Positions 2,060 to 29,337 of a DNA stretch of 33,367 nt are shown one piece after another. The stretch spans positions 1 to 33,367 of the forward strand of contig LVLI01000518.1 in NCBI GenBank assembly GCA_001687465.1, read 5' to 3'. Source of the stretch: Halocafeteria seosinensis (lineage: Eukaryota; Sar; Bigyra; Bicosoecida). A program made the position numbers and the translations under genes. Under the pieces are notes generated by a model, which searched no databases, was not told the DNA's origin, and worked only from the letters and a program-made list of their open reading frames with translations. Positions within the stretch are counted from its first letter, which is position 1; every line of letters starts with the position of its first letter.

Positions 2060-2290
2060 TCATTTCACCTGTTCATACGGCTGGAATGGGGTGGATGAGA
2101 TCCGCAGAGCTCCTCCAAGCTCCCGGTGAAGGGAGTGTTGTGATACAAACGAGGACGTTCCATGGGATTTAACTCCCCGGTTGAACCGAGCTGTATGACA
2201 CTCAATCATTAAGTTCATGTCATCTTTTCCACACTGTATTTTCTCTTGCAGAGTTCCTCTTTGTCGAGCGGAGCGTATTCCCAGAGAAGG

Positions 2291-5902: not shown

Positions 5903-8900
5903 ATGGCGTCCGAGGTAGAGGACTGGGCAAATCCGACTCAGCAGAAACAAACCACCGCTTCGAAAGGCAGACAGAAACTGATGCAAATGACGACCAGTTT
6001 TGCTGATTTCCTGAAAACTCCATCGTCGAACAATCTTTCTGGTGATGCTGAGTCTTCAAAAGAGGCCCACGTGCAAGCTTCTTCAGAAGCGAAAACTGCC
6101 GGACAACAGCCAGTGGCCAAAACCCCAAACCGAGGCTTTAGCTTCCGCTTTTCCCAAACGCCCGCTGGTGGAACAGCCGCTACATCCAACAATGCATCAT
6201 CTTTTGAGAGGCCTGAAAGTGTTAGTCGACACCGCGGAGGAGACCCCTTAGGTTCTCTTGATTACACTGAGGAGGAAGCGCTTGCATCGAAAGCACCAGA
6301 ACACGAAGGAGATTACCCTACTCGTGGTAGAGCCAAAACGAAGAAGAAGAAACCGAGTAGAAATCGCTCGCACACGGGATCTCAACCTCCCTCCACGACT
6401 ACGGCAGACGATGCACAGAGCGGTAGGGGAAATGCAGTACCCAAGGGCCCCAAAAGTCCCTCGGGCTTAGTACCCTCTCAGTTTGGATTTGTTCAGGCCT
6501 CGAAACAATCAAGCAATGACGAGCAGCAGCAAGAGAACCAAGCCTCGCTTTCTCCTCCACGAACTTTGCCTCCTATGGCATCCCAAGCCCCCTCTCCGAC
6601 CCTGACTAGCACGTCAAGTTTTTCTACAAAACAGAGTTCTGGACTCTCCCCCAAGCGATCTATGAACAAGTTGAAAACCGAATCATTTTTCGGGGGAGAC
6701 AGCCAAACGGGAAATCGGCTACTCAAGCCGCAGCAGGGAAGTCAGACCACGTCCACCGACTCCACTGCTGTCCCGGAGAGTGGCGAGAGTCCGAAGGGTG
6801 CTTTGCCAAAGGTTACAGTAAACCCACGACAATCATCTCCCAGTGGTGGATTTCATTTTGGATTCTTCTCAGACCAGCACGCTGAAATGACAACCACCAC
6901 AACCGCCAACACGCACTCTACTCACGCGCCCAGTCCACCACAGGACTCGCCGGAGCCTCCAGGCAACAGTCAGGTGCAGCTTTCACTAAAAAAGACGAAG
7001 TCTGGCAAGGGTAAATCTTTTGACAATTTAACTCCGACGAACAAAATAAAAAAGCAAACGCTTTTTAATAGGCATTTTGATCCTGAAGGTGAAAATACAG
7101 ATTCGCTAGCTCAAGCTTCCCGTAATGCGCATTCCGTGGAACTCAATGCCTCCTCACAGTCTCAAAAGAAACAGGGGCATTCGTCAACCTTGGATACCGG
7201 GGCTGATGAAAACGACGGTGGGTTTCAAGTTTCTCCTACGGTATCTCCCTCGGGGGCCTTCCGCTTTGCGCGAGGTCACTCCACTGGCAACTCGGAGGTT
7301 CCCGTGGAGAGCATTGCAGATACGAATACTTTGCAATCCATAGATCTAGAGCAACTAGAGCAAACACCTGGTCCTCAAATGCGTGACGAACACGACGGAA
7401 AGCCGCATCCGAGTCTAAAGCAGGTTGGTTCTAAGGCGGGCATGATGGTGGACTTCTCCAGCCCTTCTAGCGGAGATCAGAAAGAGTTTCTCTTTAGGAA
7501 GCATATGGGTGACAATGACAGCCAAGAGGTGGAATCCAAGCAACATTCGCAGTGGGCCATGCTCTCGTCTCATAGTGGTACACGGACAAGTCAAGGGACT
7601 GCGACTATTTCTGATACCAACGCAGTCGCGACCGAGGTCTTGCCTTTAGGCGGGACCCCCGGGTCGTTTCGACTTAAGGCAACGCACAGCTCTCATCCAA
7701 CATCGGGTGACACTCCAACTTCCTCAGCAGGTCAGGATGGTAGTGGTGACACTCAAACCAAACCGACAGCGGTCGATGAACACCATTCAGATTTCAGTAA
7801 AGGCTTTCGGGTACCGAAGTCCAGCCCTACACAAAGCGAGAAGAAGGAGTTCTTATTTGAACGACACTTGCCCAAAAACGAAGATCATCCCTTGGAACAG
7901 GAGGCAAAAGACGCATATAAGCAACGCGGAAAGCAGCAGCACTCGACTCCATCGGAAGAACAATCTAAAGAATTTACGCCTTTGCAGAGTGATAGTCCAT
8001 CAAGTAGAGTGTCCAAGTTAAAGGAAAAGAATCATGAAGAAGAGGCAATATTGGAATCGAATATAGAAGACTCCTCTAACGCACCGCAGAATACGTCAAC
8101 AAGGATCACAGAAGAGGACGAAGACGACTCCGATCACTTAGAAGAAATGGATGACCTTAACAAGTTTCTTGGTAAGCCAGTGTCGGCGCGTGAAGACAGC
8201 CAAAACCAGACTCGAAAGGAGACATGGCGCCACTCAGATGACGATCGGCAGAATCATACCACATTATCGATGGCAGTTGGTCAAGACGAGGAATCTTCTG
8301 ATATACAGGATTCAGTGAAGGAAATACCCAGCGATTACGCTCAATATCAAATACCGCCGGCAGCATTAGGATCATCTAACGTACCAGAAGAAAATTCTTC
8401 ACGAGTCGCTTCATATGTGCACACAAGTGGCAGTGGACAATCTTCCCCAGCTAAAAAGGAGGGCGAAATTCAGACGGTAGCGGATGATGATTATTCCGGG
8501 AGAGTTACCCCCGACGTAAACGTTGCCAGCAAACAGAGAGTTTCCATTGATAAGGGGAGAAAGTCGGCCGCGGAATCGGCAAGGTCTCAAAGCTCCTATG
8601 GTGATCAAACGGGAAAAGGGGAACAGCCTGAAGTAGTCTACGGCGATGTCTATTCTCATGCTGATTCCGGGAGGGAGTCAATCCAGCCGGATCACTCGAT
8701 GGGTTCGTCCAGTGTGAAGAAAGGGAAGGCGTCAATAGATAGACCCAGTGGTTCTCCCGAGGTAGCCAACATTGCAGGCACAAATGACGTCGGAAGCAGA
8801 GATAAATATCAACGTCAACGCTACGAGGAAAGTGATCAGACAGGCAATGGCATGGAACTGCCTACGGTGTACGGGGACCGTGAGTCTGATACAGACGCCC

Positions 8901-11496
8901 GTACCTCTGCAGGAGACGGACGAAGGAGGTCAATCCAGCCGGAACAGTCGACCGGTTCGTCAGGTGACGGGAAGGGAAAAGAATCCGGAACAGATAGACA
9001 CAATGGTTCGTTCCAGGTAGCCAACAGTGCAGAAACAAATGATATGAGCAGCACTGATAGATACCAACGTCGACGCTACGAGGAAAGTGATCAGACGGCT
9101 AGTGGCATGGAGCTCCCCACGGTGTACAGGGACCGTGAGTCTGATACAGACGCCCGTACCTCTGCAGGAGACGGACGAAGGAGGTCAATCCAGCCGGAAC
9201 AGTCGATCGGTTCGTCAGGTGACGGGAAGGGAAAAGAATCTGGAATAGATAGAAACAATGGTTCGTTCCAGGTAGCCAACAGTGCAGAAACAAATGATAT
9301 GAGCAGCACTGATAGATACCAACGTCGACGCTACGAGGAAAGTGATCAGACGGCTAGTGGCATGGAGCTCCCCACGGTATATGCGGACCGTGGGTCTAAT
9401 AACGACGCACGTAGAGACGACCAGACGCACCGCAAGGAACAGTTGTATGAAGAAGAGGCTACAGGTCGTAATGAAGGTTCTGACGTTCACGAATCCTTGC
9501 GAAAGTCGAGAAAGCCAACGTCACGTAGTAAGCAGCCTAAGCAGTCCGATAGGCGCCGTACTTCGTATGGTGACCAAACAGGCAAAGGAGCAGTACCTGA
9601 AGAATTTGCCCACGATTATGCGCAGTACTCTCGCGCTTTGGATTCCGCGAGGAATGAAGACAACCAAGAAAAGTATCTTCCTAACGAGGCTTCTTCACCC
9701 GAGGGAGAAAGCGCAAGAGAACGAGTAGCGTCGGATTTCTTTGACTCGCACCGGGACTCCCGGGATGAAGTCCAATTTCACCGCTCTCAGAAAGGAGCTT
9801 CTCGTAATATGCACGTGCCTCAGAGGACCCGAGCTAATGAACAATGGGTTGAAGACGCCTCTGCAGTTGATATTCCCGAGTTGCAAGAAAGTTCACACCC
9901 GACAGTGTCGACGACCTCTAAAAGGGAGAGGAAGCAACCTAGTTCATTCTGGAAGCATAAGGGCAGAGGATCTCAATATAACACGAAGAAGGTTGCTCCG
10001 GTCGACCCTGGAGATTCCCCGCGAGAATTCAGCGAGAATGAGAGCGCAAGAAGTCGAGACACTCACGCATTTACCGCCAATCATAAGCGCTCTTCCTTAG
10101 CACATTTGGACTTAGAAAACTCCCAGTACGATCAAGAACAAGTATATGCAACGTCGGGAGACCATAGACCTCGGCGCCGAAGTACAAACGGCCGTGAGGA
10201 GTATAGCGCAGCTCCAAGCTTGGCATACTCATCCCTCGAAGAGACCAGCGGTTCCAATACAGGGGCTGGACACAACGTCGAGGCTAGTAGTCCCCAAGAT
10301 GACGGTTACCACGTATCGAGTCATGAGTCACCTCGGACTGCTCAGCATCAAGCTGCAGAATCTACCCTAACGAAGAGTAGTGCTCGTTCCCCGGCTGGTT
10401 CTAAACGTCAATACCAACCATCCCGGAAAGGATTTTTTGGTGACACGTACCCAGCAGGGCAGCGTTTTACAGAACAAAGTGCCGCTGCTTCTCCTAACGG
10501 CTCTGGTTCTGAAGAGGCAAATGACAAAGCACAAGCCATGGCTGTATCTTCCGCAAGAGGAAGTCGCACTCAGCTTCCGGACGATGGCACCTCGGCGTCC
10601 GGTTCCGCAACAACTTCCACTTTCCGGAGGCACCCTGTATCGCAATACTCTCACAATTTCACCCCTGTCTTATTCAACACTGCGGAAAACTGCATTGAGG
10701 GTGTTGCCCAGATGGGTATCATGGATCCGATACCGGAAGGGAAGCATTTGATGGTCCGAGTTCCAAGTGGGAAAGGGTTTGTTGAACTCATAGAGTCTCA
10801 AACATTGAGGCGATGTGTCTTGAAAGGATGGCTTAAGTATCGATCGCCTAATGGTATGACTGCATTTTTCAAAGGATGGACATCCCGCTTCTGTCGTTTG
10901 ATTCTAAATACCAGGATCGAGCGAGTTCCAGCGTACAATGGATTAGGCTTCAGTCTCGATGAGAAAGTTGACAGTGCATGGCTGCTCTTTTACGAAAAGC
11001 AAGGGTAAGTATCCACTGCTGCTGTAGCGAAGTTATCCGTGGTAGTTACACTGATGAATCATCACGTACAGAAACGCTGACAATCCTTGGGATGGCATAT
11101 CCTTGGCCAACAAACGAGCGCAATTCGTTGAAGACTCAAAGATTGCAAGCAAGAATCCGGGAGCTTTTGAGGTATGTCAGCGTATATATGCGTTGATGAC
11201 TGTATGTACATGCTAGGATACTGAGGTTTTCGTCGTACAGCTACTTCATGATGACCATTCGGAAAGAATACTCGCTCCAACAGTTGATCCGAACAGGAAA
11301 AAGCAAAAATCAGCTAAGGACTTAGAAAATCTGGCGAAGTATTGGAGAAGTAAGCAATTTTGCGTATTAAGAATAAATGAGATCAACGTGTCCACGCTTT
11401 GGCTTTGCTACAGGGTCGATCAACGCTGCTACAAAAACCATTGGAACTTTGTTCGTTTCGAGATTCAAGAGGAGTGATATAGCGCACTCGACCTAA
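5903..11496 (+). CDS. Giant disordered PH-domain protein 2 (tandem paralogue)
   Basis: Exons 5903-11004, 11072-11171, 11241-11349 and 11414-11496 join in frame to 1797 residues. The ATG at 5903 is the first in frame. Residues 1 to about 1600 have disordered composition (S, Q, E, G, D, R, K). They contain recurring aromatic motifs in the first 660 residues and a 255-base tandem repeat at 8801-9392. The last 200 residues match the upstream gene: QYSHNFTPVLFNT, then a PH domain from about 1638 (CVLKGWLKY, GWTSRFCRL, final helix LAKYWRRSINAAT). Introns fall at the same places and phases (2, 0, 1), and exon 2 is 100 nt in both, so the pair arose by tandem duplication. Because all motifs precede one terminal PH domain, a membrane- or cortex-tethered scaffold is a reasonable inference, unproven. 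An alternative acceptor at 11216 would add eight residues. Confidence 0.85.
6127..7885 (+). repeat. Alternating aromatic short-motif ladder within PH protein 2
   Basis: Two dispersed motif types recur in the coding frame. Type A is small-F-x-F: RGFSFRFSQT (about residue 77), GGFHFGFFSD (315), GAFRFARGHS (450), GSFRLKATHS (586) and a weak KGFRVPKSSP (633). Type B is a basic or acidic residue, then FLF, then R/K and H: KKQTLFNRHFD (383), QKEFLFRKHMG (527) and KKEFLFERHLP (649). Flanking sequence is not conserved, so these look like selected docking motifs rather than recent duplications. Confidence 0.6.
8801..9392 (+). repeat. 255-bp in-frame tandem repeat (two full copies plus a partial)
   Basis: Copies start at 8801, 9056 and 9311, exactly 255 bases (85 codons) apart. 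The second and third starts are nearly identical for tens of bases, beginning GATAGATACCAACGTCGACG. The first copy is slightly diverged, and an older degenerate unit precedes it (about 8590-8800, with SYGDQTGKG, ESIQPDHS and VANIAGTND). A stray SYGDQTGKG recurs at about 9565. Each unit encodes YEESDQT, MELPTVY, RRSIQPEQS and VANSAETND. The reading frame is preserved throughout, and high nucleotide identity points to recent expansion by unequal exchange. Confidence 0.9.
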
Positions 11497-13091
11497 GAAG
11501 CTAATATCTGGCGACTGTACGTTGTAGTGGGTAAAGCAACTTAAGTTTAACACGTTGAGAGTAACCCAGCGATAAGAAACTACCCTACTCTTTCTGGTGT
11601 GTGTAGTCTAGTGTTTCGTGCAGGGGACACTAAGCCCCATTCAATAACAAATATTGCGTGTGCACGTGCACCCGTTGTTAAGTGAACTGTAGAAAAATTG
11701 TATAGCACAACAGTGTAATACTACAGTGTACGCTACCCACGTTGCTGCTTTAGTAAGCTTTACTAAAATCCCCGACCATTTTTCCGTCTTGGTACCCGTA
11801 GGCTTCTGGATGACTAAGAACGTTAGGCGATGACATTATCACGAAACAAATCAGCAAACTGTTTTCCGCATTCAGCTTGCTTTTTCATCGAAAGACCTAG
11901 ATATGTACAGTTTGGAGACCGATACAGAGCATTATACAACGCCCTGACCGAATCATTTCTCCTGCAGCAGGCTCTCATTACAACAATTTTGATACCCCGC
12001 TTCCCTTGGTGTACACACTTTGCCCGCACCAAACGTGTTGAAGGCGCGTCCAGCCAGGTATCAGTTTCCCAACCATCATGACATAGCTGACCTCGTATAT
12101 CCTCTAACTCGCCTGAAGTGTCATTTGCCTGCAAAACATTCCTCTTAGAGTCGTCTTCTCCTACGATATCTGCCCCGTTTCACTTTGGCAATCTGCCGAT
12201 GAACTCAAAAACACGCAAAGAGAGAGGGAGAGTGATAGCCCGATATTTTCTCGGGGAAATAGCCCAGTTCCAAGACGATCCTATTCAGCACCTTAAGTAC
12301 AAGGATTGTTGCTTGGGGAGCCTTCCAGAGACAGTCCAGTACAATTTGTATGGAATGGTAAATGAGGCAAGGGTGCGGTAAGGATGCGGTCAATTCCCCG
12401 TCCAGTGGGCTATCTGTCACATTTGTGTGTGTGTGTGCGTAAGCGACACGCACAACCTTAGTGGGGGGTAGAGAGCAGGAAGGCAATGTGTGTACACTTG
12501 TGTACTTCAAACTCTTTACTAAGCCTCAGAAACCGCACACTGAAGTTGCATTGCAAATTCAGCCCATCTTGACCGTAGAGATCCGGTGAGTTGTGTTCAA
12601 GTTCGTAAATGTGGTTCGGAACTTCAGAATTTAAACTACCGGTACTGTAAACAATTGTTTAGTAAGCATACAGCTTATGATTCCCGTTATGCTTACGGCA
12701 GAAGAGAGCAAAGTGCTCGATGATTGTCCACGAGTATAACCTCAGATGGCTTACACTAGTTGCATTTGAACGTGGTTTATTGAAATTGTCGTTGAAAATT
12801 TTTGGGCGTTTTGACAAAAAGCGCAGCATCTAAACGTTTTACCGCCAAATACATCTAGTTAGTGCATGTGCGCCCCCCCTGCCCCTTCCCAATCACTACT
12901 GTATACAAGGTGTCTGCACTGTGCTGACTGCATACAAAAACTCGCCGTGTTGATGACTGTCAATGTTCAATATGTTGCTCCGAGGGTAGAAACAGTGCTG
13001 TATGTATGTTGCCTGGTTTGCCCAGACACGGCGTTTGAGCACAAGAATGGGCTCCCGTTAAGGGTACTTGTCACAGTATTGGAGCTGTATA
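11497..13091. other. Spacer between PH protein 2 and the Sfi1-repeat gene
   Basis: The first few hundred bases are presumably the 3' untranslated region of the PH gene. A (GT)n stretch lies at 12424-12438. There is doubtful coding potential on the minus strand at 11823-12510, annotated separately, and no convincing gene elsewhere. The last 250 bases precede the Sfi1-repeat start codon and contain no promoter motif I can recognise. Confidence 0.45.
11823..12510 (-). other. Uncertain minus-strand coding potential, not recognised
   Basis: Two minus-strand open stretches lie close together. The downstream one (12134-11823) encodes about 100 residues ending MKKQAECGKQFADLF plus a short tail and a stop, with protein-like composition (for example VRALYNALYRSPNC). 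The upstream one (12510-12205) contains a hydrophobic helix-like segment (SIQIVLDCLWKAPQ, then VLKVLNRIVLELGYF). An acceptor-like TGTTTTGCAG occurs between them near 12130. I recognise no family and no initiating exon, and a plus-strand ORF (12118-12381) overlaps the same bases. It could be a small gene, a decayed exon or chance. Confidence 0.25.
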
Positions 13092-16000
13092 ATGCAAGAT
13101 AACAGTCGTTCAGGACATTCATACCATTCCAATATACTGGAGAAAGCGTTTGCTCAAAGTGATCAGCTCGTGAATGATGTGTTGTCGTCGTTTAAGCATG
13201 GGAAAGAGCAGAATCAACCTGGGAATTCAAATGGAACGCGGTCCTCGGGAGCTCCATCCAGCTCCCATACACGGTATACAGGTGGTTCAGACACTCTAAG
13301 AAGTGAAAGAGGTCGTTCATCGTGGTCTCGTGCTTCTCCACAAAGAGATCGAGGTGTACATGCAGAGGACTACGAGGACGATCTGGAAACGGCAGCGGCG
13401 TTGCAGGAGCCTTTTGTGGAAGGATTCTCCCCACAGAGATATGATAGCAAGGAATGGCTGTGGAACACCTGGGGAAGCTCCAGCTTACCATCGACGAGCA
13501 CTGCGCCAGCGGCAGTGGCGAATCGTTCGACTAGCAAGGGTGATTATCAAGGGGATTACGGGTCAGCTATCAACTATAATTCCAAAGCAAGCGGCGATGG
13601 AAACGACTATAATGTTACAACAAGTGGTTATGGGACGAGTGAGACACAAAGCGTGGCGCAATATTATATGAAAAGTGACCATGGTGTTTATAGCGACCAA
13701 CGTACAAGAAAAGACCCTCAAATAGAATCGTATGCAAAACATGCGAAAGAGCTACTGCAGTCTTGGCTAACAGTAGAAAATGACGCTGCTGGCGTTAAGA
13801 AGCATCAATCAAGACCAATGTCCCGCCCAAGTTCGACGACAACGAGGACTGAGCTGTCAGGAAATGTAAAACAAGACTCTGGTAAGCGCGTTGCCGGTGG
13901 AGGAGGGAAATTTCGCGTCACTGTGTCACGGAATAGAGACGGAGAGAGACAAGACGGAAGAACGTCGTCCGCTGACACTGGACAACTTGTCATTGACACT
14001 GTCGGTTCCAGCACTGGCAATGACAAGTTGCAGCGTCCCCGTACCTCCTTTAGGGCTCGTCCGAACTCAAGTAACGAACAGTCAAAGAGTAAGGGTAGAT
14101 CGAACACACCGATTCGTCGCTCTAGAGAGCGAAAGACATTCAGGAACTCTGCAAAATTATCGAAAGTATATGGCTACAACACGCTTACCCCGTCAGACAG
14201 GAAGATGATGCAGAAGCTCATTGATAAGTACGATGAATCGGATTCAGATGAAGGGGAGCAGCATCAAGTGGTGAATAGGGCACCAAGAACGGAATACGGT
14301 AGCGGCCATTATGAGCAGTCTTTTGCTGCAGCTCCTGTGACGGTGGTTTCCAGTACAAATACCGATGTAGGCCAGTGGGTTACTGACGAGACTAATTCAT
14401 CCTGCTCAATGGATCATCCAGTAGGGAGCAACGGGCCTGAAGTACTTGAACGCGCAACAGAAGGGGGAAAACGAGAGACTACTGAGCGGGCGTCCGAAAC
14501 ACCGAGTAATCAGCGGAACTATCAAGAAGAGATTCAGAAGCTACGCGCTGAAGCCGCCGAAGCTCGTGAAAGAATTAACGCTTGGAAGAGTGGATCTGCT
14601 AAACCTTCACTCTTCCAAACTTGCTCCTCGAATAGTGCAGCAGATAGCCGGAGTACCTCCAAGGATACGACTGAGCGCTCGGCAACAGCAGAACACGGGG
14701 AATCTCTGTTACAAAAACTTCAACGCTTGAGAGGCCAGGATGATGAGCAAGACGGGGCAAACAACACTAGGGAGACATCGTTAAAATCGGCGAAGCGTAA
14801 CTCTTCCATCGGGCAGCACGCTGCCCACGAAAAGGCTGTACGTACCGCGGAGCTGCGCCAGAAGCACTTCAACCGCATATTGAGACGAATATTTCGTGCT
14901 TGGAAAACCCAAGCGGGGGAGACTCATCGACGGAAGCGTATGGAGGAGGCCTTGAACCGTATTGATAGGGCACGTAAGAGACATTTAAGGAACACGTTTG
15001 ATGTCTGGAAGCGACAGTTCTTGCGCACTCAGCGAATAAATGCCGTCGCGGAGGGGAAGTACAGGTTTCATGTTTATAATAAAGTTTGGACAGCATGGAG
15101 GAAGTACATTGCTTTGTTGAGGAGAAAGCGAGAAGAAGAACTCCAAGAAAAGAGGAAGAGGGAGCACCAGGAGCTAGCTAACCGCGCAGATAGGCACTAT
15201 AAATGTCTTTTATATTCAAAATGCATGCGACAGTGGCGCAGTGGAGCTGTACGAAGCAAAGAGGAGCGGAAAGAAGAGGCACGCCAAGGTGCCCGCAAGC
15301 AACAGATGGAGCGCTTTATGAGCGCGCTGAACAGAAAACGATCGGACCCGGGGCAAACGGAACAAATGACCGAATTTGTAGGTGTGGCGCCGAACGAAGC
15401 ACTCGGTACAGAGGTCCAAACAATGGAGCAACGTTTATACACTCACCCTGAAAATGACGTGATGAATTCTGAATATACCATCGAGAACTCTGAGGGAGAT
15501 AACACGCTTACTTCGATTACTTGTAGCGCGCCCGAGGATCGCCCCAGTGTCGCAGCTCCCAGTGATTTCTCGTCGACAGTCCCTTCGCACTCGCCCATAA
15601 CTACCCCTGTCAAGTCCCTTGTGGACACCAGTAACGACGTGTGTTCTTGGGAAGCCAAAGATGCTTCTGACGAGTACATCGAGGAAAACTCCATCAGCCC
15701 CGTCTCGTCCTTTACCAGACTTGAAGGTTCTTCTACTCAATTGAATGTCTCCTGTTCCCGTATAGGTCAGGACGAACATGGCGTTGCCGTAGTGTCTTCG
15801 ACGGTACATGCGTCCTCGGTGAACAGTGCGCGCCCGCCGCCCTCGTCGGTGCATCGAGGTGTGCCGAAGAATGTACCAGCACTGCATCTTAGCTCCCAAC
15901 CACCAATCTCTCACGGGCCACAATCCGCTAAGGCTGTCACAGCGCAAACCCCTAGTCAACCGCCTTCCGATAACAAGACGTCGAATTCTAATACTGTCAG

Positions 16001-17033
16001 TGAGACACTGGAAGTAAGATCCACAAACAACAATGTTGCATATTCCGCAAAGCATGGAATGGTAGCCAACACAGGTAGCGACACAGCAACGGCAACAGCA
16101 ACTGGAGAGGGTACCCCCATAGCCAATTCAGTGGCTCCTTCGAGGCCCACAAAGGTGCAAGGCAGCACCAGAGCCAATCCCGAAACAGCGGCGTCGAGTC
16201 AGCTGTCACGTCACGTCCAAGGTTCTGGGCGCGTTATCCGGGGCGATGGAAAAGTTATCTGTACTGCACAACCGGCGGAAAATGGACAGAAGCAAAACAA
16301 TTGGAAGAAGCGCTCTCGTTTCCTAAAGAAGAATGCGCACACGTATCCAAATCAGACCAAAGTTCATAAGGAAGTACAAGAAAAAGTCTCCCGAGCAGAC
16401 ATATTTCGCCGCCTGACGTTGTTAAAAAAGTACGGCCTTCCGCGATTGAGAGAGATGGTGCGCAGCCGGCATCTTCGGGAACAAAAAGCTGAGTCTCATT
16501 TCCGTGTGCAATTATTAGAGAAATTTTTTCGACGACTACACCAATGTACCAGAAACGGAAAATACCGTCGAAGGGTGAAACGTATCGAAACGAGGAAGCG
16601 TCGGCTGCGGAGGTTGGTCTCGAAATCCTTTAAGCGGTGGAGATCCATATATGACGAACGGTCACTTAAACATAAAATGGAAGAGCTGTCTACTAGTGTG
16701 ATTGGTACGATTACCGTCAATTCCGAAGGCGCTACCGTTACACGTAACGACACCCCTGCGAATTGTACTGTAGCCCCTAGCTGCAATGACGGTAGCAGCA
16801 TCGGTATCGGTGGGCTACAGAAGACCACTACCGAGGTTGCCACAGTGACAGACACTGTTAGAGAATTCAATCGTTGGGCAGATGAGTTTAGAAAGGGAAA
16901 GCTCCGCAGGCGTTGTCTGAGGGCATGGAAGTCATACTTTAGACAAAAGAAGAGAGCGTGTGAAAGTAAGAAGCGTCAGGAGCAACTGATGGAACAAGTA
17001 CAAGCATGGTTATCCGGTTCGACCCTCGATTGA
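13092..17033 (+). CDS. Sfi1-repeat (centrin-binding type) centrosomal/basal-body protein
   Basis: This is a single-exon gene of 1313 residues; 13092 is the first ATG in frame. Two blocks of Sfi1-like helical repeats are visible. Block one, about residues 580-750, has four units with cores IFRAWKTQA, TFDVWKRQF, VWTAWRKYI and CMRQWRSGA. Block two, about 1100-1313, contains LPRLREMVR, FFRRLHQCT, SFKRWRSIY and CLRAWKSYF. Each repeat is an aromatic-x2-W-R/K centre within a long basic helix, the arrangement that binds centrin in yeast Sfi1 and in animal relatives such as CCDC191. The N-terminal third is disordered, with short helices (ILEKAFAQSDQLVNDVL; YAKHAKELLQSWL) like those in centrosomal coiled-coil proteins. 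The blocks are separated by 350 Ser/Thr-rich residues. Function at a centriole, basal body or contractile fibre is inferred. Its stop is 30 bases from that of the convergent BCAS3 gene. Confidence 0.8.
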   Translation: MQDNSRSGHSYHSNILEKAFAQSDQLVNDVLSSFKHGKEQNQPGNSNGTRSSGAPSSSHTRYTGGSDTLRSERGRSSWSRASPQRDRGVHAEDYEDDLETAAALQEPFVEGFSPQRYDSKEWLWNTWGSSSLPSTSTAPAAVANRSTSKGDYQGDYGSAINYNSKASGDGNDYNVTTSGYGTSETQSVAQYYMKSDHGVYSDQRTRKDPQIESYAKHAKELLQSWLTVENDAAGVKKHQSRPMSRPSSTTTRTELSGNVKQDSGKRVAGGGGKFRVTVSRNRDGERQDGRTSSADTGQLVIDTVGSSTGNDKLQRPRTSFRARPNSSNEQSKSKGRSNTPIRRSRERKTFRNSAKLSKVYGYNTLTPSDRKMMQKLIDKYDESDSDEGEQHQVVNRAPRTEYGSGHYEQSFAAAPVTVVSSTNTDVGQWVTDETNSSCSMDHPVGSNGPEVLERATEGGKRETTERASETPSNQRNYQEEIQKLRAEAAEARERINAWKSGSAKPSLFQTCSSNSAADSRSTSKDTTERSATAEHGESLLQKLQRLRGQDDEQDGANNTRETSLKSAKRNSSIGQHAAHEKAVRTAELRQKHFNRILRRIFRAWKTQAGETHRRKRMEEALNRIDRARKRHLRNTFDVWKRQFLRTQRINAVAEGKYRFHVYNKVWTAWRKYIALLRRKREEELQEKRKREHQELANRADRHYKCLLYSKCMRQWRSGAVRSKEERKEEARQGARKQQMERFMSALNRKRSDPGQTEQMTEFVGVAPNEALGTEVQTMEQRLYTHPENDVMNSEYTIENSEGDNTLTSITCSAPEDRPSVAAPSDFSSTVPSHSPITTPVKSLVDTSNDVCSWEAKDASDEYIEENSISPVSSFTRLEGSSTQLNVSCSRIGQDEHGVAVVSSTVHASSVNSARPPPSSVHRGVPKNVPALHLSSQPPISHGPQSAKAVTAQTPSQPPSDNKTSNSNTVSETLEVRSTNNNVAYSAKHGMVANTGSDTATATATGEGTPIANSVAPSRPTKVQGSTRANPETAASSQLSRHVQGSGRVIRGDGKVICTAQPAENGQKQNNWKKRSRFLKKNAHTYPNQTKVHKEVQEKVSRADIFRRLTLLKKYGLPRLREMVRSRHLREQKAESHFRVQLLEKFFRRLHQCTRNGKYRRRVKRIETRKRRLRRLVSKSFKRWRSIYDERSLKHKMEELSTSVIGTITVNSEGATVTRNDTPANCTVAPSCNDGSSIGIGGLQKTTTEVATVTDTVREFNRWADEFRKGKLRRRCLRAWKSYFRQKKRACESKKRQEQLMEQVQAWLSGSTLD

Positions 17034-17063: not shown

Positions 17064-20000
17064 TCAGCGGTTCCTCGATTTCTTTTTTCCTTTGCCTTTC
17101 TTCTTCTTTGACTTTTTAGAACTTTGAGAGCCGCCATGACTAGAGAGCTGATCATCTCTGCCTTCTCTTGAGGTGAGCTCCGTTGCTTGTTCACCGACTC
17201 CAGTATCAGAAACAGAGGATACAAAGGCGCTGTTTGTAGTGGTACCCAACGCAACAGAAGAGTCGAAGCTGCTTCGCATTCCTTCACTGCTTGCACTGAA
17301 GAAATCAGGGTCACTCTTTTCAAAATCGTTGGGCACGGCGTTGCGAGACGGCACACGTTCACTACCCGCCGGTGAGGTAGCTGTGGATGGACTTCTGTTC
17401 GCTGGAGAGTCTCTGGATGGCATCGCGCTAGACGTTGAGGAAACTTCCAAATTATCCATTTCTCTGTTACTGGTCCCGCCCATACTGCATGCGGTCTCAT
17501 ATGAATCTTCCCAGTTGTTTTCTGTATCGGTCTGGAAATCGTTAGGCCCCATTTCTACGGGAGCGTCTTCGGAAATACTGTAGAGTGATCCTATTCCATC
17601 GCTTACAGGAGACAAATTTTCAGCGGCCTGGACAGGTGCAACGGCACTTGAAGTGGCCGAGGTTGTCACGTGTGCCGCATTGATGTCGACATCCTCACTG
17701 CTTTTGTTTGCGCATTTCAGGGTCGCTAAGAGAACAATTTCGTCGGTGTCTAATTGACCCGTTTCCCTAATGCATGAATCGTCGGCCACATCGAAAAGTA
17801 GGGCTTCAGAACTGGGAATGTTTCTAGGGGGAACAGCGACAGTTCGAGCTTCCACTTGCGTGGTAAATGTCGGAAGTTCAAAATACTGGTCAGTGTCCCC
17901 GATAACCCTCCTCAGATCAAGTTTTGCATTCGATGATGTAGACATGTTAACATTGCAATCACTATCGCGTAGGATGTTGAGTAATACCGCTACACCGTGT
18001 GGTAATGGTTGCGGGAACCCCTCGTACGTGTGTTGTTCGCTTGCTTCTTCCATGCTTGCACATTCATATTCCCCGTCGAAGAAATTAGTAAATCTCGAAG
18101 CTGATGACAATGCGTTACCCAAATATTGAGAGAAATATGAGTACCAGCCATCATTGGAACCAGCTCTGCTAAGGGTAGTACTCGTCTCGCTCAAACTGCG
18201 GCCTCTCTTGGGAGAGGCTCTTACCGACAGGGATTCAATATCCACGCTCTTACCTTCTGGCTGAGAATCATACAAAGACGATATATCTTTAGAGGTTTCT
18301 GAGTCCTTCACTGCTCCAAACCTGGATATCAATTCAGCTCCAGTTAAGGGCTTCGCTGGGTCAGTGTGGGACACTTCACTTGGGGGTCGCGACAGGTCGA
18401 GTATATCTGAGGGAGAATTGTCAAAATACGGGTGTAGTAAGGCTAACGCATTTTGTAGCGCCTTCTTGCTCAACTCCGTTGCCATGTCGATCGTATATAC
18501 ATGCAGAAGGCCACCCGGTCCTCCTACCAAGAGTTTGTACTTCCGCTTGGCAGCATCTATGGAATTATAACGCTCTTGTAAGCTTGCCATTCTGGTATCC
18601 GAAATTGCGGACGCCCACGACGGTAACTCAGATGGGGCCTCTAGGCCTTCAAACAGAAGATCTAAATCAAGATGTAGGCCAGTCTCCAGACCATCGTCAA
18701 TACCCTCGCCCTGCAACCACAGTGACCTCGGCCTCACGTCAGCCCCGCATTTGTTAAAGGTGGAATTTACCCTAAGAAAAGGTTCCATATCAGAAATGGG
18801 GTGAACTGAAGACGGGAACTCGGGGTTAGCATCGGATTTAATTTTACGCTCGTAAAGAGCATCACGCTTGGCCAACTCCTGATCCACTAGACATCGTTGT
18901 ATTCGTTCTCGTTGCCGTTTTCGTTTCTTTTCTTCCGCCTTCCACCCTTCCAGATCCAGTCGAATCCGCAAGTTCGAATTCCTATGGGATATGCGGGAGG
19001 AAGAAAGGGATTCGATCCGATTACATGAATGCTGAAACAACCACGAAACTCTTTCGTTTAAATTATCTTGAGCGCGTCGCGGGGCCCCATTTACTTTTTC
19101 AGCGGTAGCAAGCGCACTTTTTAATTGAGCTCGGGTAGGGAACCACATCGGAGCCGCAGGGGCACCGCCAGATGGTTCAATACGATAGCAGTGGCAAGTA
19201 CCATGAGACGATGCCGCAACTAGCATCCTGGAATCAGGAGAAAAGGCAATATCCAAGATTTTCACGGACGTCAAGCCTCGCTCGAGAATGTACAATAACG
19301 ACACGTCGTGGCGGGAGATTTTTACCGTCGAAGAAGAGCGGTCAACATTGCCTGATAGAGCGCTACTGACGCCGTACCCACCCGACCCAAACGACCGGCG
19401 ACGCGAGCCAAACGGATCACTTTGGCTCCTGTATTTTCCTCCACGTACTATTGTAACTTCGCTGCTCTTTACAGTTTGTTTGGGCCACGTTAATCGAAAG
19501 ATTTTTACTGCTTGGCCTCTTTCATTAGCTGTGGCCAGCAATGAGCCGTCACTGTTGAATTTTAGTTCTGCGACTCTTGTCGAGTGTGCACGAAACAAAC
19601 AAACTGTTGAATGGCTTAGCATATCCATTACGAGGACAAACCCGGGAGAGTCCACATTTTCCTCCGAATGGTGGTCATCCGTGTGATTCTTTGTGGTACT
19701 ACTACCGGATGCACGAGTCGAAAACGTATGCGGTTGTTCCTGCGTGGTATCCTTATGCTCTGACCCTGCTGATTTAGCTGCCGAAAGCTGCTCAGCATCC
19801 TGAAGGTATTGCGCAGCAGAAGGTGTTGGTCCAGTCTCAGAAGAGCTCTCGGCAGGCCTCCGACGTATAAACTGACCCACAGAAGTAGTAAAGTCGACAA
19901 CGGCGCCCGCAGCGAGCGATACCATATTACTTGCGATATTAGCAGCATCTTGCACCCCATTTTGCAGCGTAGGGGCTGCATCTTTGATATACTTTTTTCC

Positions 20001-21364
20001 AGAGCTGCGAAGACTTTGCAATCCAGACACTATATTCTTGGTGGCACCATGGGCCTGTTGAGATGTGTAGTCTTCCTCAACTGCTGATCCATTAACATAG
20101 GTGGCATCAAGGCTACAAGCTGACGCAGGAACTGCCATCCACCTGGAGTTCATTGTCACTGGATGCCCAAAGACTCCGCTTCCGGGAAATATTGGGACGG
20201 TGAATATACATGACATCGTGAAAGCATTAAAAACATACACCTGAGAGCGCAGTACAATCAGAACAAAAGGAGAGTATTCCGATGAAATAATATTTCTCAC
20301 GGGCTCTTGAAATCGTATTCGATTGATGAACCTGCGGGTTGTACGTATCGAAGTGGAGCATCCTTGAAGAATGGTACGTCTCAAGATGTAGCACTTACTT
20401 GTTCTCTTTAACTGAAAAGACTCGGACATCAGTGACTCGAAAGGTGTGGCGCCCTGCTGGCTCTAGCTTGCGTTTCGAACGCTTCTTGCTTTTGCTGTCC
20501 TTTTTCTTGTTCGGTTCAGCTGAAAGATCGGAGGGGCTCCTAGAGCTAATACACTTGTACGTACCATGCCAGATGACACTTACCATTTGCTTCCTCATTT
20601 CCTTCGGGAGGGCAAGCTGCCACCAGCAAAAGGGGCTGGTGGGACGTGAGCCTGTGTACGGCTTCGCTGATTATCTCCTTCTTAGCGTCTGACGACATGC
20701 TTCTCAATGCTTCAATGCCCAGTGGGCTCTCCAGTTGGCTGTTCGGTGGAAACGCAGCAATGCGGGTAATTGCATAGGGGGTCTTGATGGAGGCTATCTG
20801 CTTCGTCAAAGCTGGATTAGATGGATTGATAGCATGCACTTGAAAGCCGTCCGGGTAGCAATTGCACAGGCACTTCCCGTATGGTTCCACCGAAATGATG
20901 TGGGTGTTCAACACGACAGCTGTCGGACGAATACCTTGTCCGCCTTCAGTACTATCTCCGTTCACCTTGTACGACTCGGGACGCCCATTCATGTACATTG
21001 CCTGTTGTTCCTTTACTGGTGAATGTGCACGATGCAGGGATCCTTGGTCGTTGGAATCACCGTTGCGGAATTCTGGCTCTGAGGGACCACGGTCCTGCTG
21101 GCTTGTTTCAAAAACATGTTGCTCCGATGAATTTCCATCAGGTGCCACCATGTCATTGACGGGCATGACTTTCATATCACTCGTCGCCTCTGCCGCACCA
21201 TCTACAGCATCACCACCAAAAGGAGATCCTGTCCGTGCGAGCTCGGCGTCATCGTCGTTAAAGTGGTGCGTTGTTTGCTGACAGCATGACGGGCTGTTGC
21301 TCCCTTCCTCTCCTCCCGAGGAACATATAGATGCGTCATTCTCTCCCGAGCGTCTCTCGGTCAT
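17064..21364 (-). CDS. BCAS3 / ATG18f-type WD40 beta-propeller protein
   Basis: Exons 21364-20584, 20519-20399 and 20331-17064 join in frame to 1389 residues. Introns are 64 and 67 nt with GTAAGT donors. 21364 is the first ATG. After a 160-residue acidic disordered N-terminus, propeller blades begin (TAVVLNTHIISVEPYGK). They continue with VTDVRVFSVKENKFINRIRF, AHSTRVAELKFNSDGSLLAT with ANERGQAVKIFR (about 549-580) and LLYILERGLTSVKILDIAF with SSHGTCHCYRI (about 646-684). This sequence order matches human BCAS3 and plant ATG18f/g/h, which bind phosphoinositides and act at phagophores or in cytoskeletal polarity. A BCAS3-type region follows (around 800-900, PRSLWLQGEG), then a Ser/Thr-rich tail and a polybasic end (KKKKGKGKKK). 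A lysine-rich insert (KKKDSKSKKRSKRK) occupies a loop at about 264-278. The protein is longer than human BCAS3 (about 930). Confidence 0.88.
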
Positions 21365-22468
21365 CCTTTCCACGCACAGGCCGCTAATGCCTCGTGTTAT
21401 ACAGTCAGACAAGGCACTTCAACTTGAAGAAAGTTGGGAGACGAAACTAACGATGGGGTGAACGGATGCCTCCCCCTTCTTTTTCTCTCTATCGTCGTAC
21501 TCGTGACGATTCCACAAGTCCAAACGGCACAATTGCCCTCCTTGTTTTTTGTTGATTATGGCGAGAATGAACGTAAAAATCACGACAATTCAATTATACG
21601 GCCTGTCATTGAAGTGTTCTGGGGCCCTGAGGGACAGGCTGGACAGCGCATCAATCAAACTTGAAGTTTCTCATCTCACCCACCCCCTTCGGTAGACTGA
21701 CCGCACGCACACCAGTCAGTGAGTGACTATGTGCCGTCTTGGACCATGATGATGGACTACTGTTGGATGGGGTGGAATGTGCCATTGTATCTGTGCTACA
21801 GTAGAACGGACAGATGGACAGCAACAAAGTCCGGAGATCTGGAGATCGCACGCCCAAACGCCAGGATCGTAAGAAGCGTAGCAACCAAGAATGAGAGTCA
21901 TAGCAGTGTTTTTGACCCCAGGGTGCAATGAATATCCCACGGCATGGTTCACCTAACCGTGATGGGTATCATCCAACGCTGCTCCTTAGGGAACCTAGCG
22001 GCGTAGCATGGTAGAGTACATGTGCATCATGATGTACATGTGGTGCCTCCGGTGCCCGCTGCTGCAGCAAGGCACTGCATGCTGTGTTTTGACTAGCATC
22101 TGCCAGTACGGCCTAGTATCGCGCATCTGCAACACGTTTATGTTGCCAAGGGTTCGTGCGTGTAGGAAACCTGTGGATGACGCTTGTGTGTGTGTACACT
22201 GTGTAGTATACCGTGGTACAATACAGCACTCTGCAAAGGCGATGGCGATACATGGTCCCTCCAACAACTATATGCTCCACAGTCACTTTTCATTGTTCCT
22301 GTCGCTCGTACATGTGCATGGTAGTGTTGCTAGCCACGGACCAGATGTATGGATTGGAGGACCCCATATCCCGTCTGTGTCCTTGCCCATGTCTGTAGCA
22401 TAAACCTGACAAGAAGAATTTCCAAACCACCACGTCCGTGTGTATATATGTATGTATGCACGTTCCAC

Positions 22469-22974: not shown

Positions 22975-24274
22975 ATGGCGGCCAGTTCAGCGCGACGACG
23001 GGAGAAGGATGTAATGGCTCTGTATGTACTTTGGACGCTTGCCATGTTGAAGTTGGTGTTGAAGAAGCCCGTGTCGGGAGGTGTTTATGGTGGTTTACTC
23101 TTGTTTTCGTGTGCTACTAGGGGCTGTTTACCGTCTCCGTGCGTGCGTCTATGCTGTGTGCAGACTGATGAGCAACTACGACGTGGATCTGGGAAACGCC
23201 GGTGGAGATTTCGGCGTGAGTCAAACGGGCAATGGAACCCAAGTGAATGGGTCCGGAGGCAGTAATGCCAGTAGTAGCAACAGTAGCGCCACCAATGGGA
23301 GTGGAGGAACTGGACAAGGACATCAAAGCTCCAGCAGCTCAGGAGGAGGCGTGAACGCTAGTGGTCTCATTGAAGAATTCACGGTCAAATTCAAAGGCCC
23401 AGAAGACAGTACGTCAGAGTATAATAATCCGCTTACTTGGAACATTACGTGGATGCTACTCATTGAATTGTGTTATAAACAGCACCTTATGAAGGTGGAC
23501 TGTGGTACGTTAGTGTTAGACTTCCGCAACAGTATCCGTTCAAGTCCCCTTCGATTGGCTTTCGCAATAGGATGTTCCATCCGAATGTGGTATGTCTACT
23601 CAACCCCGACCCTAGGAAGGCACAGGACACCATGAATAGAAGGAGATATATTTGTCTTATATGTGCTCCAAATGCTACAGGATGAAAGCAGTGGCAGTGT
23701 GTGCTTGGATGTTATCAGTCAAACGTGGACGCCGATGTATGGTATGTTCTTGCCGGGGTAATCGTCTCGCACAAATTGCAACAGTATATGCTTACCCGGT
23801 TTTTCCCCTGTTGGCTTATTCAGATTTAGTAAATATTTTTGAACAGTTTCTTCCGCAAGTAGGTATTCATAACATGTGATATCATGTAATGTGCTCGTCC
23901 ACCCGCTTGTATGCCACACAACCGCAGCTTCTAAGGTACCCAAACCCCACCGACCCCTTAAACGGAGAAGCTGCGCATCTCCTCTTGCGCGAACCAGAAC
24001 AATATAAGAAGAAAGTCAAAGGTAAGAATGGCGTATGTCGAACTGTTGTGCAATCGCTTCGTTGACGTTGCGGGGTTCGGCTGGCACAGATTACGTTGTA
24101 AAGTTCGCCACCGAAGGAGCCTTAAACGGGTCAACGGGGTCATCCACACAAAATGGTGGTCATACGGAACCTTCCTCCTCTGGCGTAAAGCCAGCGGATA
24201 CACCGGAGTCCATGGAGGATATGGAAATGGAAGATGATAACCAGTCAGAGGTTAGCGAGCTTTCAGACTTGTAG
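22975..24274 (+). CDS. Ubiquitin-conjugating enzyme E2, UBE2H / Ubc8 family
   Basis: Seven exons (22975-23021, 23164-23408, 23483-23589, 23681-23741, 23824-23858, 23928-24021, 24090-24274) join in frame to 257 residues. The UBC fold is complete: N-terminal helix [15 protein letters not shown], strand [31 protein letters not shown], the HPN motif (130-132), catalytic cysteine in SGSVCLDV (Cys141), [19 protein letters not shown] and [16 protein letters not shown]. The closing helix [12 protein letters not shown] and an acidic tail ending EVSELSDL match UBE2H, the E2 that works with the GID/CTLH ubiquitin ligase. It is longer than human UBE2H (183 residues) because of a roughly 55-residue Ser/Gly/Asn insert in the loop before strand EEFTVKF. 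Introns are 68-91 nt except the first (142 nt). It is convergent with the fusion gene on the other strand, 107 bases apart. Confidence 0.95.
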
Positions 24275-24381: not shown

Positions 24382-27300
24382 CTATTCCGAAAAAGGATTA
24401 CTGGAAAAGTACCCTTCTTCCTCGAGTGCCCGGATGATACCGTTCAATCGCTTCGCCCATGTTGCTGGGCTCTTCTTAGCAACAAAATTGACCAAAAAGG
24501 AAGGGACTTTGCCACGGAAGTCAGCATTGGAGGTAAAAGTCGTTGCAGACGATGATTCCCCAGTTTCTGTTATTGTGAAACCACTAACTCCTAAAAGCAC
24601 GGCCCGGATGTATGGATGACGTGGGGGAGCAACGCAGTGGAACCCATTGCGGAAGCATACGGCCAAAGAGCATCCGCTGGAATCGGGATATACCGCCCGA
24701 AACAATACGCAGTCTCGTTGAGCAACGACTGCACTGAATGGCGGAGCCGGTGTATCCGCAAGCTTATAGTAAATGCAGTTGTGACAGTCCAATCGGCAAA
24801 GCTCAGACACGTTTTCCCACGACCTATCCCATCTTCGATAGTTGGTCACATTGACAACAGCTTCCGTAACTTTGTGGCATTTCTTAGTAGGAAGATTGAT
24901 AGTCCCCGTAACTGCCCGGATAGCATCGTGAGAACCAACATCTTGCCGAGGTTTTCCAGATGGATAATGCTTCGCAGGGTTCTCCATGTAGTTAGCTGCT
25001 GGTGCGGGCTTCCGTTCCTTCTTCCAGTTATTGCATGACGGTGCTTCCAGATCACTCCAAGAGATTTTATCTACTTCATGACGAGGATCGGAATGCATAA
25101 AAACATGCATACCTAGCTCGTGGTTATCCACGACCTGCGAACATCTCTAAATATATCTATTCTTGGGACCACATACATCAGAATTACTACATACCGATTT
25201 ATACTCTTCTGAGTATACGTCATCTCTGTTCAGTCTCAACAAATACTGCGCGTCTTCCGAACTTGTTGGAAACTGACCACGAACACACCCCCATGCGCTA
25301 TCGCTACGCGAGGCGATGACGTAAGTTGGAGACGATAACAAGCGCTCTGCGTCTCCCCTGAATGTTGAAGGCGCAATACGTGTTCTGTCACGTTGCTCGG
25401 AGCTACAGGGCTCCGTTCCATATATCCATGTAAGTATACTACTATGCTGCAGGCCTTGTACTGTGCACACATATGGTTCCACATCTTTTTCATAATCATC
25501 TTGGATATCGATGTCGTGCCTACTAACAAACTGAATTTCTGGTATAACTCGGGAAGCCGTTTCATCGTCTATTTCATTACCCGTAGCCATTGTTTCCATC
25601 AGTTCTGATCTATCTGGTACTAGATTTGCCCATGAAAGGTTCTTGAGAGCTGGAAAGAAAGGTGCCAACATACACGAAGGGATGCTTGTTTCTTCACCGG
25701 TATGAGACAAGGTGACGTCAATCGAATGAAGCTGAGATTCTTTCTTGCCCACTTTCGTTGAGAGACCGATCTTTCCTTCTTTGATGGGCCGCAGAAGTCT
25801 CTCTAGCATATCCGAATGTCTTGAAGAGTCACTTGAACTGGGACTTCGTTTAGGCGAATCTGGCGAAGACAGTAGCATGCGATCATGGAAGGTATCAACG
25901 AAAGAAAATCGCATTTGTCGGACCGTGTGGGTGTTGGGTGAAAACAAGTGCCGCGCCGCCATGGATAAAGTCGCCAGTTCCGTGATCTTAGCATTGAACT
26001 TGATGTTCTCCTGGTGAGTGCGGGCATCACGATCCTCCCAAAGATGACCCAGCTCTGCAATGACACCGTCTGATATATCGAACGGCAATTTTTCGGCCTC
26101 ATGATGAGCTTTATCGTCCGATTTGGGGGCCCGGGGCTGAAGGAATGAGAAATAACTTCCCAAATAGCCCAGTCGCTGGATTGCTTTCTTGGCTCGCACA
26201 GAAGAGGTGCACTGTCTACACAGTTCTTCCGCCTCATATTTCGGTAGGTGGCACAAATGGCTTCGCAAGAATGGCACAGACAGTCTATCAGAAAGCAGGT
26301 TTGTTAGTCTCTGTTTTGGACCACCTTCAGATCGCACACTATTCACCCAGTCAATGTAGTCCAAGTACAATCGCTTGACAGCGCTCAAGATCACCCTTCG
26401 GCAACGGCAAGCATCCACAATAGGAGTGGCATATCCTTTCTTCTTGCGGTCTTCGATGCCATGTATGATAAACTCAGCACCCAAAGGAATGCGGCCATTC
26501 CGGACGAAGCGCACCAGCCCTTTCCCACCAGAGGATGCAGGTGCCTGCGCAAAGTTCATTTGAAACACTGCGGGTACAAACTGGGTAGGCCTTTCGTTCT
26601 CCTTCTTTTCATCGTGTTTCATAAGCTTCATCATTGCACCAAAACTCCATTTACTTTTTTTCTCTTCCTTGGGGGAAGCAGCATCTGACTTCGCTCGGGA
26701 TGGTCTTCGCGTCTCGCTGACATGGCGGGCTAATTCAGTACAACTTCTCTCACAACTGTATTGATGAATATAGAGTTGCCGAACAGTATCCCAACTATCT
26801 TGTGGCTGCTCTAGTGTTACTTCATCCACCGACAGTCCTGGCGTACAACCCAGCAATTCCGGTACCCACTTTAACGAAAAATTACCGAACTGGTCCAATA
26901 AATCAACGACCGCATCGGATTGAGGATCGATCAAGGCCGACGGAGATAATGAAGGAGCGGAAGGCTCTATCAGCAGTCCAGCAGCCCACTGAAACACAAA
27001 CGATAAATTCAGCAAACTCCATTCAGTAGCATATGTAGCAATAAAACGAGCTCCCAGACCCCAGGGGAGCATGAGATACTTGCACCAGAAGTTGGCTAGT
27101 AACATTAATCCCGGATGCATCGATTTAATGGAAAAATTGTCCTGCTGTATCGAGATTTCTTGCGCAAGCTCGGTAGACAAACCGTTCAAAGAAAACGGCA
27201 AAAATGGTCCCACTCTTTCTAGACAAGAGTTCTTGCATTGGTCACGAATTCGCTCCCCGGGTAACGAATAGCGCTCGGGTAAAGTTCCTGTTTGCTTCAA

Positions 27301-29337
27301 GCATCTAACGCTGGCATCCACCAATGGATATCCTGTAGTTCCCGAGAAAAAGGAAGCAGCTCTTTCTGATTCAGTTACCGGAACAGTTGTGAAATCTTCG
27401 CGGGTGCTATTCACTAACTTTTCCAGCTCTAAGGCATGCCCGTCACCCCAGCTATACCTACTGTAATTCACGCTCTTGTTGCCGTCATGAGAGACCAGGG
27501 ATTCGAGAGGTAGTCCCAGGGCCCATGGGAAGGAAGCCAGTTCAGGCCTTTGAGGGCCGATGAGTGAGTGCGGCTGTTGCACAATATACTGGTTCTGAAA
27601 ATCACGAACTAGGAGAGATTCTAGCGCGGACCTCGCCTTCTGTTTCTGTATCCGCGTTTCTAATTCAAGTTCTAGCAATTTCTTGGATCCGCCACAACGC
27701 CGCAGCAATGTTGTGGACGCGTTCACATATGCATGAGGGGATTCCAAGGGATCCACATCATGAACCATTTTCCTAATGTCTTCAGGTAGATCGTCTGTGG
27801 ATCTGTTGCTGCCAATACCGGTCAATGCCAGCACAGGAGTCCAATATAATTCTATTATGCATGGTACGTATTTGTCCGCAGGTAGTTCGTTCGATGGATC
27901 GCATTCCTCGATGGTTAGGTCAACAGCGGCTGTTGCTTCCACAAGAAAATGTGCTGTCCACCATAGTGTCCGTGCATCAATGGCACCCGAAGTCAAAAGT
28001 GCATCAATTCCGTGCTGATGCTGATAGGAGATAAAGTCGACCACTGGTTCTCCACTAGCAGCTTGGTAAGCTGTATCACCCTGAATGTGATCCAAAGCAC
28101 TACGGTTACAGAATCGACTGAGGTGGGTCAGATGGTATCCAGAGGCTAGCAATAGAGGCCAGTCAAGTGGATGTACAGAAGGACTCGTTTCACAACTTGA
28201 CAACGCATCAAAATTTGACTTCAATTTGTGTTGGGGAATTCGACTGTGGCAACCGTGTGAGTTCACGTCTAAACTAGTAGCTCCGTGCGACATAGAAATA
28301 TCTGGATCTATATCTGCGTCCTGTTTCCTAGGTAGTGCGTAAAATTTTGCTTCAGCGAAGGCTAGACAGTGTAGCTGCTTGTCAGGAAATTTTGAAACCC
28401 TCGCAAAGTCCTCGTAACTGATCGCAACTGGGGCATAAGATAGAACCTGTTCTGAAGGCACCATGCTTCTTTCTCCATTAGTTGTACCATTTTCTTCAGT
28501 ATGGGATTCTTTCGTGCAGGACGTCGCACTTCGATTCAAGGTCACAGGGCATATCTTGGAGAAAAGACTGTGCAATGTCGTCTGTCGCCCGGATTGCATA
28601 ACACGGTACTCAGTCGAGCTCTTTGACGTAAAGAGATGTTTGCTGTCATATGCCATCACAAACGGGTCTTCGGATGCAGTTGCTACGATCCGCTTCTTGG
28701 CAAACTCCTTGCATGTGCTCTGCAAAACACGAGTTCAAACAAAATACATACCATTCATTCCCCCAAGATGCGGTTGCACAACTGTGATCAACACAGCGAG
28801 CACCCACACTCGACAGCAAAGACATACCTCTAGTGTTTGCTCCACGCTGTCTTGGTTGCCAATATACTTGACGTGGACCTTATCTTGCGGTCCTAGCCTC
28901 ATTTGTAGACAATGAAGGACCCATGGCAGTACGACTGTCCGGTTGTACACTTTCCTTGGATGCGTTGGCGAGCGCTCATCCAAGGCCCCCGAAGCGTGGA
29001 CGCCTGCCCCGTCGGCAATATCGTAGGAAGCACTGTACACGAGGAGACACACCGTCAGAGAAGACGATTTAGAGCCATTTTGCCGCGTCTGTTCGAGTAT
29101 TGTCCTCTCCGGTTTCCCTGTTTGGGACGGGAATGCCGGGATTCCTGAGCCTCCCCGAACCCACAGGAGATCATCCCCAGTGAGCAGAGTGTCCCACAAA
29201 GCTGGCGCCTCCTCGTGGAAGCGGTCTTTCCAGTGTAAAACACTTAATAAGGCATTATCGTCCAGTTGGGAAGGGTTCAATTGGATCTGAGGAGCCGGAT
29301 TTTGGCGTCTACTGTCCTCTGTGGACGACGCAGCCAT
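24382..29337 (-). CDS. Cryptochrome/photolyase-like protein fused to a START domain
   Basis: Exons 29337-28828, 28719-25195 and 25134-24382 join in frame (both introns phase 0, GTATGT donors, 108 and 60 nt) to 1595 residues. About residues 100-290 resemble the photolyase alpha/beta domain (VVLPWVLHCLQMRLG, then ISYEDFARVSKF). About 400-800 match the cryptochrome/6-4 photolyase FAD domain: GAIDARTLWW, ALESLLVRDFQNQY, FPWALGLPLESLV, TGYPLVDASVRCL (632-644), LANFWCKYLMLPWGLGARF (711-729) and DQFGNFSLKWVPEL (779-792). A roughly 55-residue insert splits the core, and the DxDW...GNW flavin motif is largely lost (EWSLLN, then FVFQW). Residues 850-1345 are unrecognised. Residues about 1415-1585 are a START lipid-binding domain (TNYRRWDRSWENVSELC, PPFSAVVAQRDCVLFR, VPSFLVNFVAKKSPA). 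Typical cryptochromes are 500-700 residues. Repair or flavin photochemistry is doubtful; lipid binding is plausible. Confidence 0.8.

Follow-up and report, generated by a model that had tools for sequence, protein, structure and literature searches.

Does a protist gene join part of a photolyase to a lipid-binding START domain, and would such a protein still sense light? The question is raised by a minus-strand gene of Halocafeteria seosinensis, located in a window of 33,367 nucleotides (the whole stretch of DNA analyzed) that corresponds to contig C325 in an assembly of 605 contigs totalling 30.6 Mb. A first-pass annotation had described its product as a cryptochrome/photolyase-like domain fused to START. 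We analyzed how much of either domain is detectable, whether the join is genuine, and what the protein might do.

Gene structure

The gene and its parts are as follows.

29337-24382, minus strand: fusion gene, three exons, 1595 aa, fully open frame
28828..29337, minus strand: exon 1, residues 1-170, open frame with ATG, without recognisable domain
28720..28827, minus strand: intron 1, 108 nt, GTATGT...CAG, phase 0; similarity to the relative P0001 begins at its acceptor
25195..28719, minus strand: exon 2, residues 171-1345, open frame; P0001 is 49% identical
25135..25194, minus strand: intron 2, 60 nt, GTATGT...CAG, phase 0, in-frame stop; joins the photolyase part to the START exon
24382..25134, minus strand: exon 3, residues 1346-1595 plus stop; relatives P0002 and P0003
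26845..27408, minus strand: photolyase-derived core, residues 608-795, PF03441, C-terminal half of the FAD helical domain
26365-27612, minus strand: weaker photolyase similarity around the core, about residues 540-955
24442..25038, minus strand: START domain, residues 1378-1576, PF01852

The frame opens with an ATG at 29337 and closes with a stop codon at 24384-24382. For exons 1 and 2 the codon-usage score was in favour of the coding frame, which in exon 1 ranked best of all six; for exon 3 the coding frame was level with one antisense frame (0.023 vs. 0.026), with 0.137 over the first 240 bases of this exon. Exon 1, for which no Pfam or PDB sequence match was obtained, is the least supported part of the gene, its basis being the open frame and the codon score. 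The joining intron (intron 2) had been described as resembling others in the window in donor, acceptor, phase and length; the gene's two introns indeed share GTATGT...CAG and phase 0, but differ in length (60 vs. 108 nt). The window's other introns were read by eye only.

Domain matches and extent of the photolyase-derived segment

The START domain previously assigned to exon 3 was confirmed by PF01852, which scored over its cut-off of 22 bits both on the spliced protein (residues 1378-1576, E 3.3e-10, 40.1 bits) and on exon 3 alone (E 9.1e-12, 45.2 bits). A whole-genome search with this profile landed on the same place, and P0002 and P0003 were matched as well. On the spliced protein PF03441 (FAD_binding_7) aligned in two stretches with E 1e-14 and 54.9 bits against a cut-off of 27, which makes this a photolyase-family match by profile, and the same profile matched P0001 with E 2.4e-15. 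Its best stretch (residues 608-653) lies within residues 400-800, the span for which the first-pass annotation would have taken a missing photolyase match as refutation. Four photolyase/cryptochrome models of NCBIfam hit the same stretch with E values from 1.7e-5 to 0.008, all far under their cut-offs, and the remainder of exon 2 contained no Pfam family over cut-off.

The photolyase signatures claimed for exons 1 and 2 were thus recovered in part: the FAD-domain signature stands, while the alpha/beta signature does not. PF00875 was absent from the spliced protein at E values up to 1 and from exons 1 and 2, searched separately, at E values up to 10. We further scored the fusion protein and P0001 with sub-profiles built from 97 photolyases (98 were tried and one was dropped), using 1000 shuffles per sub-profile, 461 to 792 of which received a score. 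The TGYPLVDA piece reached 33.1 and 30.1 bits (fusion protein and P0001, respectively), above all 503 scored shuffles, and the core following it 18.2 and 16.6 bits, above all 792. The ELIWRE-like piece (1 and 4 of 623 shuffles as good) and the PIVD piece at the C-terminus (0 and 4 of 570) were both weak, and the region preceding the ELIWRE-like piece was barely or not distinguishable from shuffles (20 and 23 of 461 as good). For the alpha/beta region the sub-profile gave -2.6 bits in the fusion protein, a level attained by 184 of 637 scored shuffles (95 of 637 for P0001). In the hhalign comparison the C-terminal half reached 97.6-98.2%, and residues 61-300 only 0.1%, as against 0.1, 0.3 and 0.1% for three shuffles. 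In forced global mode hhalign reported 98.4% by laying a whole photolyase from residue ~313 onwards; there was no confident N-terminal pairing, and this result was given no weight. A structure prediction for exon 1-intron 1-exon 2 (1200 residues, two alignment rows) had a mean pLDDT of 28.5, too low to use.

By these profile comparisons residues ~608-795 are with certainty photolyase-derived, and residues ~540-955 probably so. An alpha/beta domain is unsupported by the sequence and unproven, a strongly diverged one being conceivable. The label cryptochrome/photolyase-like domain overstates the case: of the FAD helical domain no more than the C-terminal half can be recognised, the alpha/beta domain is undetectable, and the flavin-contacting residues are replaced, as detailed below.

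Relatives and the reality of the join

Searching the protein database with the full-length protein returned one relative, P0001 (1211 aa), among 7999 candidates scored, and a two-sequence profile of residues 171-1001 again found P0001 as the sole match at E <= 10 among 8000; both searches scored only candidates sharing most words with the query. The START exon retrieved two relatives among 1706 candidates, P0002 (90% identical) and P0003 (77%). P0001, which is identical to exon 2 at 580 of 1175 residues (49%), matches one place only in the genome, namely the fusion locus. Profile searches of viral contigs (42 stretches) and genome contigs (41 stretches) gave none that was confirmed.

The boundaries of these similarities coincide with the splice sites. 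Similarity to P0001 runs from the acceptor between exons 1 and 2 to the exon 2 donor, after which P0001 continues in an unrelated tail that opens with Val (a GTN codon). Similarity to P0002 reaches back exactly to the acceptor of intron 2, upstream of which the sequences are unrelated except for the acceptor's own Gln codon. For P0001 and P0003 alike, the longest contig listed has 31,404 bases. When the final eight codons of P0001 are shifted by one base, they can encode residues 1-7 of P0003 (probability by chance 8e-7 at this position), and the codons just upstream would fit Q-VVENQELG, the counterpart of Q-VVDNHELG in the fusion protein, where E and Q were chosen among the residues that the codons permit. 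Taken together, the listed contigs and the codon logic imply that P0001 and P0003 overlap on one stretch of DNA, and that this relative has a frame-breaking intron of 70 nt which agrees with intron 2 in position and phase; since 70 is not a multiple of three, only splicing would keep the frame. The fusion, which the first-pass annotation had suggested seeking in related genomes, is thus apparently kept in P0001/P0003, with the same order and the same intron position. Intron 2 has strong comparative support, and the in-frame fusion of a photolyase-derived segment to START is real, because a relative shows the same join.

Two explanations that would do away with a functional fusion were weighed against these data. 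Very unlikely in our estimate is a gene-model error, with two adjacent same-strand genes, one for a photolyase-derived protein terminating within intron 2 and the other for a START protein of its own. Exon 2 does read on to a stop at 25147, exon 3 does have an early ATG (Met nine codons in), and P0001 and P0003 are separate entries in the protein database, each with its own frame; yet the similarity to P0001 stops at the donor and that to P0002 at the acceptor, and the DNA under the P0001 tail permits VVENQELG at the very same place. Moreover, the eight residues ahead of the exon 3 Met are identical in P0002, although a START gene standing alone would have no use for them. Hardly credible is that the gene is a pseudogene in decay or that the profile matched by chance: degenerate as the photolyase part is, 1595 codons are open, long open frames persist in relatives at 49%, 77% and 90% identity, and the PF03441 E values for the fusion protein and P0001 given above speak against chance.

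Flavin site and conservation of the core

Flavin contacts were assessed at positions that we took from E. coli photolyase, with numbering that counts the first Met; phosphate-loop positions before residue 240 were left out of the residue count, the alignment being unreliable there. Replaced in both the fusion protein and P0001 were the following residues (conservation among the 97 photolyases in brackets): E275 (91) by Ser in both, W278 (97) by Val and Ile, respectively, N342 (96) by Glu and Gln, R345 (97) by Ser in both, D373 (97) by Glu in both, D375 (84) by Ser and Asn, N379 (97) by Leu in both, and W383 (95) by Phe in both. The change at D373 is conservative, as an acid is retained in both proteins. 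R345 adjoins an insertion and its alignment is uncertain, with Ser or Leu but never Arg in either placing. R279, W307 and W360 were kept in both proteins. The tryptophan triad for electron transfer (W307, W360 and W383) is incomplete in both species, W383 being Phe.

Flavin binding by the photolyase-derived core is unlikely, because flavin-contact residues are replaced in the fusion protein as well as in P0001. Some residual or altered cofactor binding is conceivable in view of the Asp to Glu change at D373 and the retention of R279, W307 and W360. Between the two species, identity was 78% in core residues 706-795 and 86% in START residues 1441-1590, while exon 2 overall was 49% identical and its two most variable stretches 24-27%. 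Judged by this comparison, some function keeps the altered core under selection, because 78% of its residues are identical as against 49% for the whole of exon 2.

START domain

The best PDB sequence matches of the START domain were 6ser (STARD10, E 7.6e-5) and 9rue/5i9j (STARD3, E 0.004), all with modest scores. The helix at its C-terminus is conserved and ranks first in amphipathic moment among the 1578 windows of the protein. A basic membrane-binding helix at residue 858 was considered as well and was unsupported, its moment ranking 518 to 965 of the 1578 windows. The structure prediction for START (250 residues, three rows) was not usable (pLDDT 30.0). Elsewhere in the genome START was matched just once, in a 756-residue open frame on contig C76 (L019:1801-4071) that also contains ACBP and PH domains by Pfam.

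Host genome and neighbouring genes

A six-frame search of the assembly, which intron-broken genes can escape, gave no match to PF00504 (LHC) or PF01716 (PsbO). A photosynthetic alga as host was accordingly rejected; the host is probably not photosynthetic, because neither LHC nor PsbO was matched. Among a set of four other loci (L015-L018), PF03441 matched on contigs C108 and C94 and PF00875 on C108, C94, C4 and C134; by eye from their motifs, those on C108, C94 and C4 are presumably CRY-DASH-like, 6-4/animal-like and class II-like, respectively.

Within the window, a gene that by eye encodes a ubiquitin-conjugating enzyme (~22975-24274, plus strand, several short GT...AG introns) converges on the fusion gene, the two stop codons lying ~110 bases apart. 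A BCAS3/PROPPIN-type WD40 protein (PF21034, E 2.5e-15) is encoded at 17064-20462 on the minus strand, probably with a further exon at 20546-21418. The frame at 13062-17033 (plus strand, 1323 residues) had no Pfam match and contains repeated Trp/Arg-rich helical motifs that, by eye, we take to recall Sfi1-type repeats. Two long low-complexity proteins without Pfam match are encoded at 2213-4285 and 5897-11008 (both plus strand); their C-terminal ~100 residues look alike by eye (...RCVLKGWL...ERVPAYNG.GFSLDE.VDSA...), and the two genes are probably neighbouring paralogs sharing an unnamed domain.

Possible functions of the fusion protein

The reading we prefer, at a probability of roughly 55%, is that of a flavin-free, light-independent scaffold or pocket derived from a photolyase, to which a lipid-binding START domain is joined. 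A single spliced gene would yield a 1595-residue protein with what is left of a photolyase FAD helical domain in its middle and START at its C-terminus. START would hold one lipid beneath its C-terminal helix, and the helical core, freed of flavin and light, might offer a surface on which partners dock or a pocket that accepts another ligand, by analogy to the weakly FAD-binding mammalian cryptochromes, where a ubiquitin ligase docks in the same pocket. The protein could then recruit a partner, or deliver lipid, according to its lipid occupancy. More tentatively, and somewhat against the odds, strong selection may have remodelled the old flavin site, in an apparently heterotrophic lineage, to receive a new ligand or partner that is sensed jointly with START lipid occupancy.

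Two other functions were considered for the core. The first-pass annotation had offered either a light- or redox-sensor or an interaction scaffold coupled to lipid binding, and of these the scaffold fits better. A cryptochrome that controls the START domain via flavin is unlikely, because the flavin-contact residues are replaced and the alpha/beta domain is undetected: N342, R345, D375, N379, W383, E275 and W278 are all changed in both species, and neither profiles nor hhalign detect the antenna domain, even though photolyase homology is certain by PF03441, W307, W360 and R279 persist, D373 has given way to another acidic residue, and the same genome has other photolyase-family genes. The fusion protein is thus probably not a working cryptochrome or light sensor, and a FAD_binding_7 match in a protist should not be read as one. 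A core that binds another nucleotide or metabolite, acting as an enzyme or metabolite sensor with START serving only for membrane or substrate delivery, is a doubtful but plausible alternative; it would agree with the altered core being the most conserved part of exon 2 (78%), beyond what a passive scaffold needs, but no other enzyme family was matched in Pfam or NCBIfam.

Comparison with known systems

With the photolyase superfamily the fusion protein has in common the TGYPLVDA...TG stretch and the helical core after it, which are collinear (E 1e-14); it differs in its replaced flavin contacts, two insertions within the core and an undetectable alpha/beta domain. PDB sequence matches to the photolyases 1dnp, 1tez and 1owl were weak (E 0.0095-0.022). 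By profile, STARD10 and STARD3 would share the START fold with the fusion protein. Known START partners (homeodomain, PH, RhoGAP, thioesterase and membrane segments) include, to our knowledge, no photolyase, and if the preferred scaffold reading holds, the photolyase core would be a new type of partner for START domains. No described family with the photolyase and START pair had been known to the first-pass annotation, and none was found in a narrow literature search that covered few subscription journals.

The Dualchrome of Pycnococcus is described as a cryptochrome-phytochrome chimera acting as a dual photoreceptor (PMC12558739). It resembles the present case in that a microbial eukaryote has combined a member of the cryptochrome family with a different domain, whereas the fusion protein analyzed here lost flavin residues and has a lipid-binding domain as partner.

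That a photolyase fold can function without light is familiar from mammalian cryptochromes. These type II cryptochromes are described as light-independent, with FAD weakly held and FBXL3 docking in the FAD pocket (PMC9845712). The likeness is by analogy only, in that a photolyase fold would work without light; the fusion protein showed no special sequence similarity to mammalian cryptochromes, its best PDB matches to the core being photolyases, and mammalian cryptochromes still bind FAD weakly and are without a START domain. If the preferred reading is true, this separately blinded and conserved photolyase core would be another natural experiment on the fold after flavin loss.
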